From: a bacterium
GTDB taxonomy: Bacteria; Desulfobacterota_D; UBA1144
Assembly (NCBI GenBank): GCA_018654605.1
Contig: JABILG010000012.1
Location: 1 to 47,666, forward strand
Direction: 5' to 3'
DNA length: 47,666 bases
This document shows, in pieces, positions 35,564 to 37,925 of this stretch (its first letter is position 1; each line of letters opens with the position of its first letter). A program made the translations under genes and the position numbers. Below the pieces are notes generated by a model. That model had not been told where the DNA came from. It saw only the letters and a list, made by a program, of their open reading frames with translations, and ran no database searches.

Positions 35564-35665
35564 AATTATGCTATGAATAATAAGTAAAAATATGGATAAT
35601 ACAAATTTTATCGCCCTAAAGGCAAATATTTATTGATTTTATTTATAAAAATACTACTATACTAA

Positions 35666-35699
35666 AAAGTCGTCATTTAACTCTAATTGCAACGACTTT
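35666..35699 (+). promoter_or_regulatory. Leader hairpin near the putative transcript start
   Basis: AAAGTCGT (35666-35673) and ACGACTTT (35692-35699) form a perfect 8-bp stem with an 18-nt loop. If the promoter at 35633-35663 is right, the transcript starts within this hairpin's first arm, so it would be a 5'-end structure. A T-rich tract follows, so premature termination is an alternative. Confidence 0.45.
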
Positions 35700-35745
35700 A
35701 AATAATTTTATCAAGAATATTGGACATATATAGGGAGAGTTCAAT

Positions 35746-35820
35746 ATGCTTATCATTTCTCAGGTTTGTTCATGTTTTCGCTTATTAAACTGTTTTTGTG
35801 GCTTTAATAATATTCATTGA
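35746..35820 (+). CDS. Cys-rich 24-residue upstream ORF (putative leader peptide)
   Basis: A 24-codon ORF with a clear Shine-Dalgarno (GGGAG at 35733-35737, 8 nt before the ATG). The peptide has four Cys at positions 8, 10, 16 and 18, arranged as two CxC pairs (CSCFRLLNCFC). It ends with TGA at 35818-35820, 65 nt before the methanethiol oxidase start. Its stop codon lies in the 5' arm of an inverted repeat that can compete with another next to the oxidase Shine-Dalgarno. Known Cys-rich upstream ORFs respond to copper or cysteine supply; that this one does so is inference, but both inputs fit a copper-dependent enzyme that oxidises a thiol. Confidence 0.55.
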   Translation: MLIISQVCSCFRLLNCFCGFNNIH

Positions 35821-35873
35821 AAAATTAAAAATTTAATTTTATTTGACTTTTTAATTAATTTTCAAGGTCAAAT
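35817..35873 (+). promoter_or_regulatory. Candidate translation-coupled attenuator before mtoX
   Basis: Repeat A pairs 35817-35831 (TTGAAAAATTAAAAA) with 35848-35865 (ending TTTTCAA), an AU-rich stem with a small bulge. Repeat B pairs ATTTGAC (35841-35847) with GTCAAAT (35867-35873), whose 3' arm ends one nt before the GGAGGA Shine-Dalgarno. The 5' arm of B lies in the loop of A, and the 3' arm of B lies outside A, so the two are alternatives or form a pseudoknot. The leader-peptide stop codon sits in the 5' arm of A. Confidence 0.45.
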
Positions 35874-35885
35874 TGGAGGAACAAA

Positions 35886-37277
35886 ATGGGAATGACTGCT
35901 GATAAAACTTTTTACCCTACTGCTAAAATGGCAATGGAGGCACCAAAAGAAGAACTTGCTTATATCGCAACACTCAATGTTCATGGTAAACCTGACTCTT
36001 TATCAACCGTTGATGTGAATCCTGAATCAGATTCATACTTATCAAAAGTTGGCGAACTAACTCTTCCTAATGTTGGGGATGAGCTGCATCACTTTGGTTG
36101 GAATGCTTGTAGTGCTCACTTATGCCCTTACGCTCCTCACCCTGATGTTGAAAGGAGATATTTACTTATACCAGGATTAAGATCCTCAAGAATGTATATT
36201 GTAGATACAAAAGATAATCCAAAAGACCCTAAAATAATCAAAACTATAGAACCTGAAGAATTAATGGAAAAAACTGGCTATAGCAGGCCTCACACTGTCC
36301 ATTGTGGACCTGAAGGTATTTATGTAAGTGCCTTAGGTGGTGGAACTAAATCGGGAGAAGGACCTGGTGGAATATTCTTAATGGACCATCTTACTTTAGA
36401 TATAAAAGGACAATGGGAAAAAGATAGAGGTCCTCAACACTATGCATATGATTTTTGGTGGCACCTAGGCCACGACAGAGTAATAACCTCAGAATGGGGA
36501 ACTCCTGATCTTTTTGAAAATGGGTTGAATCTCGAAGCGGCTGTTGCAGGAAAATATGGTCACAAGATTCATGTGTGGGATTTAAAGACGCATAATCATC
36601 TTCATGAATTAGACTTAGGAAAAGAAAATCAGATGGTATTGGAACTTAGGCCTTCAAAAAACCCAAAAAATACTTATGGTTTTGTTGGAGTAGTAGTCAA
36701 CACTCAAGATTTGTCAGCATCTATTTGGACATGGTACCTTGAGAAAGATGAATGGAAAATTAAAAAGACTATAACTATTCCAGCCCAACCTGCAGCAGCA
36801 GAAGATTTACCTGCACCGCTTAAACAATTTGGAGCTGCACCACCTCTTATAACTGATATAAATCTATCATTAGATGATAAGTTCTTATATGTCTCATGTT
36901 GGGGTACAGGGGAACTTCATCAGTACGATGTTTCTGACCCATTTGACCCTAAATTAGCAGGAATGGTTGAAATCGGAGGAGTAGCAAAAAAGAAAGCGCA
37001 TCCCAATGGTAGCCCTGCCACTGGTGGACCCCAAATGGTTGAACTAAGTAGAGACGGTAAAAGACTTTATTTCACTAACTCACTTTACAGTAGTTGGGAC
37101 GATCAATTTTACGATGACATAAAAGGCTGGTTTGTTAAAGCCGATGTAAATTTATCAGGTGGTATAACTCTTGATAAAGACTTTTTTATGGACTTTGGCG
37201 ATCAAAGAACGCATCAAGTTAGGCTACAGGGCGGAGATGCTTCATCTGATTCGTTTTGTTTTCCAAACGAAGAATAA
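35886..37277 (+). CDS. mtoX: Methanethiol oxidase / SBP56 family protein
   Basis: A 463-residue beta-propeller protein of the SBP56 (selenium-binding protein) family; bacterial members oxidise methanethiol to formaldehyde, sulfide and hydrogen peroxide and are reported to need copper. Family stretches seen are AYIATLNVHGKPD, HHFGWNACSAHLC (conserved Cys and His), RYLLIPGLRSSRMYIVD, SRPHTVHCGPEGIYVSALG, DFWWHLGHDRVITSEWGTP, DINLSLDDKFLYVSCWGTGE and GGPQMVELSRDGKRLYFTNSLYSSWDDQFY. It lacks an obvious signal peptide, so it may be cytoplasmic or exported otherwise. Strong GGAGGA Shine-Dalgarno 6 nt before ATG, after a structured leader. The small membrane protein 24 nt downstream is probably its partner. 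Confidence 0.93.
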   Translation: MGMTADKTFYPTAKMAMEAPKEELAYIATLNVHGKPDSLSTVDVNPESDSYLSKVGELTLPNVGDELHHFGWNACSAHLCPYAPHPDVERRYLLIPGLRSSRMYIVDTKDNPKDPKIIKTIEPEELMEKTGYSRPHTVHCGPEGIYVSALGGGTKSGEGPGGIFLMDHLTLDIKGQWEKDRGPQHYAYDFWWHLGHDRVITSEWGTPDLFENGLNLEAAVAGKYGHKIHVWDLKTHNHLHELDLGKENQMVLELRPSKNPKNTYGFVGVVVNTQDLSASIWTWYLEKDEWKIKKTITIPAQPAAAEDLPAPLKQFGAAPPLITDINLSLDDKFLYVSCWGTGELHQYDVSDPFDPKLAGMVEIGGVAKKKAHPNGSPATGGPQMVELSRDGKRLYFTNSLYSSWDDQFYDDIKGWFVKADVNLSGGITLDKDFFMDFGDQRTHQVRLQGGDASSDSFCFPNEE

Positions 37278-37301: not shown

Positions 37302-37925
37302 ATGGAGCTTGTAATAGAAACTATGGAACATTCTTTACTATTTTTCCTTACTCTTGGGGTTTATCATGGAATAAACCCTGGGATGGGATGGCTTTTTAGT
37401 GTTTCAATTGCTATGCAAAAAGAGTCGACTAGGAAGATATTTACTAGTCAAATACCTATCGCTCTTGGTCACTTAGCCTCACTTATAGTTACTTTAGCTA
37501 TATTCGAGACTCTTAAGAACATAATCCCAATTTATTATACGAAGATCTTCTTTGCTTCTGTATTAATTCTTTTTGGAGCTTATAAGATTTATGATCGTGC
37601 TCATATGAACTGGGTTAAAATGAACGTAGGGAATATTGATCTTGCAATATGGTCTTTCTTGATGGCCTCATCACATGGAGCGGGACTAATGCTAATTCCA
37701 GGGTTCAATACTCAATCTAGTCATCATTCTGTGGTCCATATATTTAAGAGTGGCCTCTTGCCATTAGTATCTCATATGGCGGGAATGATAATTATTTCGA
37801 CAACAATAGCATATTTCGTATACAAAGTAATAGGCCTTAAGATACTAAGAACGGCATGGGTAAACTTTGATTATTTATGGTCTTATGCGTTAATAATTGG
37901 TGGACTATTTATCTTTTTCAGCTAA
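37302..37925 (+). CDS. Small polytopic membrane protein linked to methanethiol oxidase
   Basis: A 207-residue protein with about six membrane segments. Conserved-looking polar residues lie in the membrane: GVYHGINPGMGWLF (24-ish on), IALGHLASL, SSHGAGLMLIPGF and SHMAGMI, four His-containing motifs that could bind a metal or move a proton. The HGxNPGxG...GH pattern recalls NicO/RcnA-type metal exporters, but the match is not strong enough to name it. Its position 24 nt after the SBP56 gene suggests it handles a substrate, product or copper for that enzyme. Confidence 0.65.
   Translation: MELVIETMEHSLLFFLTLGVYHGINPGMGWLFSVSIAMQKESTRKIFTSQIPIALGHLASLIVTLAIFETLKNIIPIYYTKIFFASVLILFGAYKIYDRAHMNWVKMNVGNIDLAIWSFLMASSHGAGLMLIPGFNTQSSHHSVVHIFKSGLLPLVSHMAGMIIISTTIAYFVYKVIGLKILRTAWVNFDYLWSYALIIGGLFIFFS

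Follow-up and report, generated by a model that had tools for sequence, protein, structure and literature searches.

The leader of the SBP56 gene in the window, by which we mean the whole 47,666-nucleotide stretch analyzed here (G000:C13 of a 1.02-Mb metagenome-assembled genome of Candidatus Dadabacteria), is with a probability of about 0.7 a decayed member of a leader that is repeated in one Dadabacteria family, the intact form of which would carry two sensors in series, one for SAM and one for Cys-tRNA. The original prediction described a Cys-rich leader ORF and two inverted repeats as a candidate attenuator, and its ORF, the GGGAG in front of it, the four cysteines, and both repeats are indeed present in the window where it placed them. 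What it missed is that a SAM-II-like aptamer lies upstream, that other sulfur genes have this leader too, and that the window copy is decayed. The window features that the argument needs are these:

35633-35663, plus strand: putative promoter (TTGATT at 35633-35638, TATACT at 35658-35663), a few nucleotides 5' of the first base of P1
35667-35698, plus strand: P1 hairpin with the conserved loop CATTTAACTCTAATTGCA, the surviving 5' half of a SAM-II-like aptamer
35701-35747, plus strand: 47-nt patch homologous to uppP (bacA), replacing the 3' half of the aptamer (GCTAAAC-GAG), the expression-platform hairpin, and the original Shine-Dalgarno (SD) region
35733-35737, plus strand: GGGAG, SD-like, inside the uppP-derived patch, where uppP itself reads GGGAA
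35746-35820, plus strand: leader ORF of 24 codons, MLIISQVCSCFRLLNCFCGFNNIH, ATG at 35746-35748 and TGA at 35818-35820
35841-35873, plus strand: hairpin directly 5' of the SBP56 SD, 35841-35847 (ATTTGAC) pairing with 35867-35873 (GTCAAAT)
35875-35879, plus strand: GGAGG, SD of the SBP56 gene, conserved in relatives
35886-37277, plus strand: SBP56-family gene (selenium-binding protein / candidate methanethiol oxidase), 463 aa, 601 bits to PF05694

A SAM-II-like aptamer in one family of Dadabacteria

With the window leader as the query, 32 places were recovered in 14 of the 58 genomes of the class, most of them matching only at query positions ~10-68, which correspond to the promoter and the hairpin at 35667-35698. 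The window P1 hairpin differs from those of 29 other copies, spread over 14 genomes, by 0-5 mismatches, and a covariance model built from these 29 intact copies scores them at 84-107 bits and the window copy at 48.4 bits (35667-35758). The element is present in 14/14 genomes of the GTDB family, in one to four copies each, and in 0/44 of the other genomes of the class.

In the intact copies of the relatives the element sits directly 3' of a promoter (TTG...TATAAT), and has P1, the loop ATTTAACTC..TTGCA, and GCTAAAC-GAG in this order, with the core GTCGTCATTTAACTCTAATTGCARCGAC..AAATAA.TGCTAAAC.GRG. This resembles the SAM-II aptamer (RF00521, RF01726), with which it shares the P1 hairpin, the AUUUAAC...UUGCA loop, the GCUAAA, a G-rich 3' strand that pairs with the loop, a promoter just upstream, and sulfur-metabolism genes downstream. 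The -10 box lies a few nucleotides before P1, and a promoter close before the aptamer is the usual SAM-II layout (PMC1273637). The element differs from SAM-II in its loop-tail pairing, which is CUC/GRG rather than the consensus, in its host lineage, in its targets (cysI, a rhodanese gene, SBP56, and a thrC paralogue as opposed to metA/metZ), in the polycysteine ORF that follows it in three target classes, and in a score just below the Rfam gathering score. At gathering thresholds Rfam gave no match in the window or at 14 loci, the best intact copy falling 0.4 bit short, and the similarity to SAM_alpha (RF00521) was exposed only after the threshold was lowered: the full-length alignment reaches 35.6 bits (E=2.5e-4; L066) against a gathering score of 36, further copies reach 33.1 (L028, an SBP56 leader), 31.8, and 30.7 bits, and the window copy reaches 17.9 bits (E=0.12). 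The RF01726 SAM-II model gives up to 27.8 bits on intact copies. We take the element to be a SAM-II-like aptamer, which would be expected to bind SAM.

When the search was widened to 387 genomes, a weaker match came from one other lineage. This SAM-II-like element (L107, G138:C14:11888-11980, minus strand; 56.9 bits) lies in an unrelated, distant genome, is followed by a hairpin resembling an intrinsic terminator, and has an apparent DNA cytosine methyltransferase in its neighborhood. No polycysteine ORF was found at it, and a search of the genus mate of this genome did not return the element. A plain scan of the class for TGYTGYTGYARY proved unspecific.

Competing pairings in the leader RNA

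P1 and the pseudoknot between the loop and the GRG strand are paired in nearly all copies. The aptamer pseudoknot (P2; alignment columns 15-17 with 54-56) pairs in all 29, with one-sided variation only (UA/UG), and is absent from the window copy. Across the alignment there are 44 changes on both sides of a pair, as compared with 17.2 +/- 4.0 in shuffles and <=14 in slid controls, and these fall mainly in the hairpin after the aptamer. Descent and duplication link the 29 copies, so that they do not count as independent, and we regard this covariation as supportive rather than conclusive. The GAG strand can also pair with the CTC at the base of the following hairpin, and this alternative structure is equally compatible with the alignment. 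Because the GAG strand and the loop TAACTC each have two partners, mutually exclusive states are built into the leader, as would be expected of a switch.

The partners of the loop can be read from alignment A1, in which TAACTC (columns 12-17) is complementary both to the GRG strand (columns 54-56) and to an invariant GAGTTA (columns 91-96). The GAGTTA lies after the platform hairpin, and GAGTT recurs in the leader SD (GGAGTTT).

Closer to the gene, the two repeats that were read as an attenuator have separate fates. The hairpin adjacent to the SD, which in the window stops one nucleotide short of TGGAGG, recurs in the leaders of the rhodanese gene and SBP56 although the arm sequences differ (CTGG/CCAG, CTAG/CTAG, CTGAC/GTCAG, TTTGAC/GTCAAA), and pairing of arms with their own partner is 94% as opposed to 87% when arms are swapped between sequences, a modest difference. 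The AU-rich repeat (35817-35828 with 35855-35865, one bulged A) has no conserved partner in most relatives, and this half of the proposed attenuator is not supported. Folding gave no consistent direction for the accessibility of the main SD with a ribosome on the CCC (three consecutive Cys) or on the stop, nor did it point consistently to translation or to transcription as the level at which the platform acts. In a mock SAM-bound state the leader SD became less accessible in 15 and more accessible in 8 of 29 copies. A CUCU beside the Cys run that might mask the cysI SD was also considered and dropped, as recoding with synonymous codons gave equally good binding in 19-58% of draws.

Decay of the window copy

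Compared with the intact leader of a same-genus relative (L019), everything between AATAATT and AGTTYAATAT in the window copy has been replaced by the 47-nt patch, which has 91% identity to the genome's own uppP (L050, G000:C18:18598-18644, minus strand) and 77% to the uppP of the nearest relative. In this way GCTAAAC-GAG and the expression platform were lost together with the original SD, and the GGGAG that had been taken for the SD of the leader ORF belongs to the patch. The Cys run has eroded from CFCLLNCCCC to CFRLLNCFCG through substitutions and an in-frame 3-nt deletion, and a 1-nt deletion has abolished the ancestral stop of the ORF; the stop codon of L019 has a masked base and was taken as TAG by comparison with other leaders. 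What is left is an ORF with Cys at positions 8, 10, 16, and 18, read directly from the sequence, without a CCC run or any adjacent Cys. Since it lacks the half of the aptamer on which ligand binding would depend and has an interrupted Cys run, the window copy has probably lost both inputs.

The patch could have arisen by template switching or as an assembly chimera. If the latter were the case, the aberrant leader would be an artefact of metagenome assembly and the real copy of the species would be intact, and it is true that no copy but that in the window carries a patch taken from elsewhere in its assembly. We think this unlikely, considering that the patch differs from the assembled uppP at 4/47 positions and that the 7-10 nt of shared sequence bounding it are shorter than the usual assembly words. 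Also, neither the losses in the Cys run nor the frameshift at the stop lies within the patch, so the decay extends beyond it.

Polycysteine leader ORFs

In the relatives, an ORF of 21-33 codons with its own SD follows the aptamer before cysI (6 copies), the rhodanese gene (6), and SBP56 (3), whereas no polycysteine ORF is found at the thrC copies. It starts ~110 nt into the leader with a GGAG, and a leaderless start of the mycobacterial type was not encountered. These ORFs hold 4-11 Cys, and all 15 have a CCC near the stop, always in frame (15/0/0 in frames 0/1/2), which 0.1% of shuffled ORFs do. This speaks for the suggestion that Cys-tRNA would be a sensible input. A pattern search across the 14 genomes of the family placed the in-frame polycysteine ORFs with an SD at riboswitch loci exclusively, the other matches reading as coding sequence in another frame.

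An alternative is that the riboswitch alone regulates and that the ORF makes a functional small peptide, such as a thiol or metal buffer, in keeping with its high Cys content, its own SD, and its position as the first cistron under the aptamer. However, nothing but the terminal Cys run is invariant, both the length and the N-terminal half vary freely, with many non-synonymous changes, and the ORF always precedes a sulfur gene at a spacing of 56-130 nt. Consecutive Cys codons close to the stop are moreover the known signature of an attenuator (PMC1262725). Because the peptides vary so freely outside the Cys run, codon sensing fits better than a functional peptide, which we consider distinctly unlikely.

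If the Cys run were instead an arrest peptide or a chemical sensor of sulfide, persulfide, or redox state rather than of tRNA charging, the conserved residues would be expected where they are, in the final 6-10 codons, which is also where arrest peptides have theirs, and the sulfur genes downstream would suit it. Yet the residues flanking the run vary (SNSCCCNYK, PCCCCCN, SSSCCCN, NSCCCG), and a simple codon run suffices for tRNA sensing, which makes this reading quite improbable.

A sulfur regulon

The same leader precedes four gene classes: a threonine-synthase family gene (in 13/14 genomes), a rhodanese-domain sulfurtransferase, the sulfite reductase cysI, and SBP56. By operon, the targets are a thrC paralogue beside a ThiS-like gene, cysI-cysD-cysN, a rhodanese-sufU operon, and SBP56, and family scans confirm the sulfite reductase, CysD, CysN, rhodanese, SufU-like, ThiS-family, and SBP56 assignments. 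The window genome itself keeps intact leaders before thrC (L061), cysI (L053), and the rhodanese gene (L056). A supply of cysteine sulfur would fit this set of genes, which covers the reduction of sulfate to sulfide, the transfer of sulfur, and SBP56.

The copper input that had been proposed alongside Cys-tRNA, in which nascent-peptide cysteines would bind copper and alter translation of a copper enzyme gene, draws on the copper requirement of SBP56-family methanethiol oxidases (PMC5739008, PMC10362175) and on known Cys-containing copper-sensing upstream ORFs (PMC9426467, PMC9973294), but it is very improbable given that the leader heads sulfur rather than copper genes, that a SAM-II-like aptamer precedes every intact copy, and that the short ORFs have their Cys in terminal runs and never combine a CXXC/CxxxC site with a RAPP or proline-rich tail, as the longer copper ORFs do.

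Two observations concern the thrC loci. In the window genome, the riboswitch-bearing thrC (L061, G000:C6:62200-68300, at about locus 2167) is followed by a ThiS/MoaD/SAMP1-like gene and is one of two genes above the family cut-off, the other being at C16; it may be a sulfur-incorporating PLP enzyme that uses a thiocarboxylated carrier and not the housekeeping threonine synthase. Another genome has two nearly identical thrC loci near contig ends (L049 and L062, G008:C14 and C20), both with the riboswitch, which represent either a recent duplication or an assembly duplication.

The SBP56 gene and its relatives

The name "methanethiol oxidase" that the window protein was given stands as to the family and not as to the function: the PF05694 match is strong, and the score of 116 bits against the MtoX model NF052453 (NCBIfam) is far below the cut-off of 650. 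The protein is a candidate methanethiol oxidase, and a contribution of sulfide from methanethiol would be a prediction from the family for a protein that lies below the MtoX cut-off. The nearest solved structure is 2ece, no SCO1 or MauG neighbors were found among the downstream genes tested, and a scan for relatives in viral contigs gave none. Downstream of the gene, at 37302-37925, lies a 207-aa probable membrane protein with no Pfam or NCBIfam match.

SBP56 genes with 89-97% protein identity are found in 11 members of the family. When their upstream regions are aligned, a Cys-rich ORF stands at the same place in 3 of the 4 other genomes of the genus (L019, L027, and L028), which makes the ORF reported before SBP56 more than a chance occurrence, and the Cys runs of these relatives are far stronger than that of the window, for example MIKTICDCSFCDCVFCLSSTCCCLSNSCCCNYK in L027. 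No such ORF was found in this alignment before SBP56 in L018, L026, or the g3 and g4 genera. Two genomes, G004 and G008, have SBP56 without this leader, which counts against our preferred explanation. What was proposed as a leader combining an ORF of Cys codons with an RNA element is kept in kind in the relatives, and the window copy is the decayed one. In the g4 genus (L021-L025) another conserved block, AGTATGTTACTTTATTTATACTACTATCTTTT, stands ~100 nt before SBP56, with neither the aptamer nor a Cys-rich ORF.

Precedents for each half

The closest counterparts of the leader ORF are the polycysteine ORFs of mycobacteria and other Actinobacteria, for which attenuation has been proposed (Seliverstov 2005, PMC1262725). 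Both are short ORFs with a Cys run near the stop that stand before cysteine or sulfur operons and lack an intrinsic terminator. The mycobacterial ORFs are leaderless, however, whereas those described here have an SD and a SAM-II-like aptamer in front, so that the leader ORF would work like the mycobacterial leaderless class yet is no member of it. As related in PMC9031893 and PMC13236596, it was experimentally shown for the mycobacterial polycysteine ORFs that scarcity of Cys-tRNA raises downstream expression (Canestrari 2020, doi 10.1111/mmi.14498). The uORFC-8-2 attenuator of cysS in Rhodobacterales (PMC8632094) likewise has an upstream ORF with tandem Cys codons before a gene related to sulfur and Cys, but it has an intrinsic terminator and no aptamer and controls cysteinyl-tRNA synthetase. 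In the SAM-II riboswitch of Sinorhizobium meliloti metA, which controls translation at a distance (PMC9373788), the aptamer acts on translation and there is a second downstream start site, as proposed for the leader here, but a separate amino-acid leader ORF is not described there. The copper ORFs CruR and CutF (PMC9426467, PMC9973294) share a Cys-containing upstream ORF acting in cis; they are longer proteins with metal motifs and arrest sequences and belong to copper genes. We found no report, among the open-access papers that we searched, of an aptamer and a polycysteine ORF in series, of such a leader in Dadabacteria, or of one before SBP56. Each half has precedents, in SAM-II and in the polycysteine ORFs, and it is their serial combination that appears to be new.

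Two proposed sensors in series

Under the preferred reading, the first sensor would be the SAM-II-like aptamer, in which the GAG strand pairs with the aptamer loop as a pseudoknot when ligand is bound and with the CTC of the following hairpin when it is not, such that the first ORF, or thrC directly, would be translationally repressed by SAM. In the cysI, rhodanese, and SBP56 leaders, this first ORF would be the second sensor, a polycysteine leader with a CCC shortly before its stop. If Cys-tRNA were scarce, ribosomes would slow at the CCC, and expression of the downstream sulfur gene would rise. We lean toward the view that a SAM-II-type riboswitch in this way gates a polycysteine ORF, so that a single mRNA would weigh both the pool of SAM (methionine) and that of cysteine before sulfate reduction, transfer of sulfur, and expression of SBP56 are allowed. 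Duplication appears to have carried the module to several sulfur operons in two marine Dadabacteria genera.

As a rule, riboswitches and amino-acid leader peptides occur as solutions separate from one another, and in this uncultured lineage of marine bacteria the two recur in series on sulfur genes. The family also places a SAM-II-like aptamer in a lineage where Rfam thresholds miss it and, in some members, links SBP56 to the regulon of sulfur assimilation, with the window leader as a natural loss-of-function copy. If the preferred reading is true, these bacteria would possess an RNA-only circuit balancing methionine and cysteine supply, and one that is open to testing.
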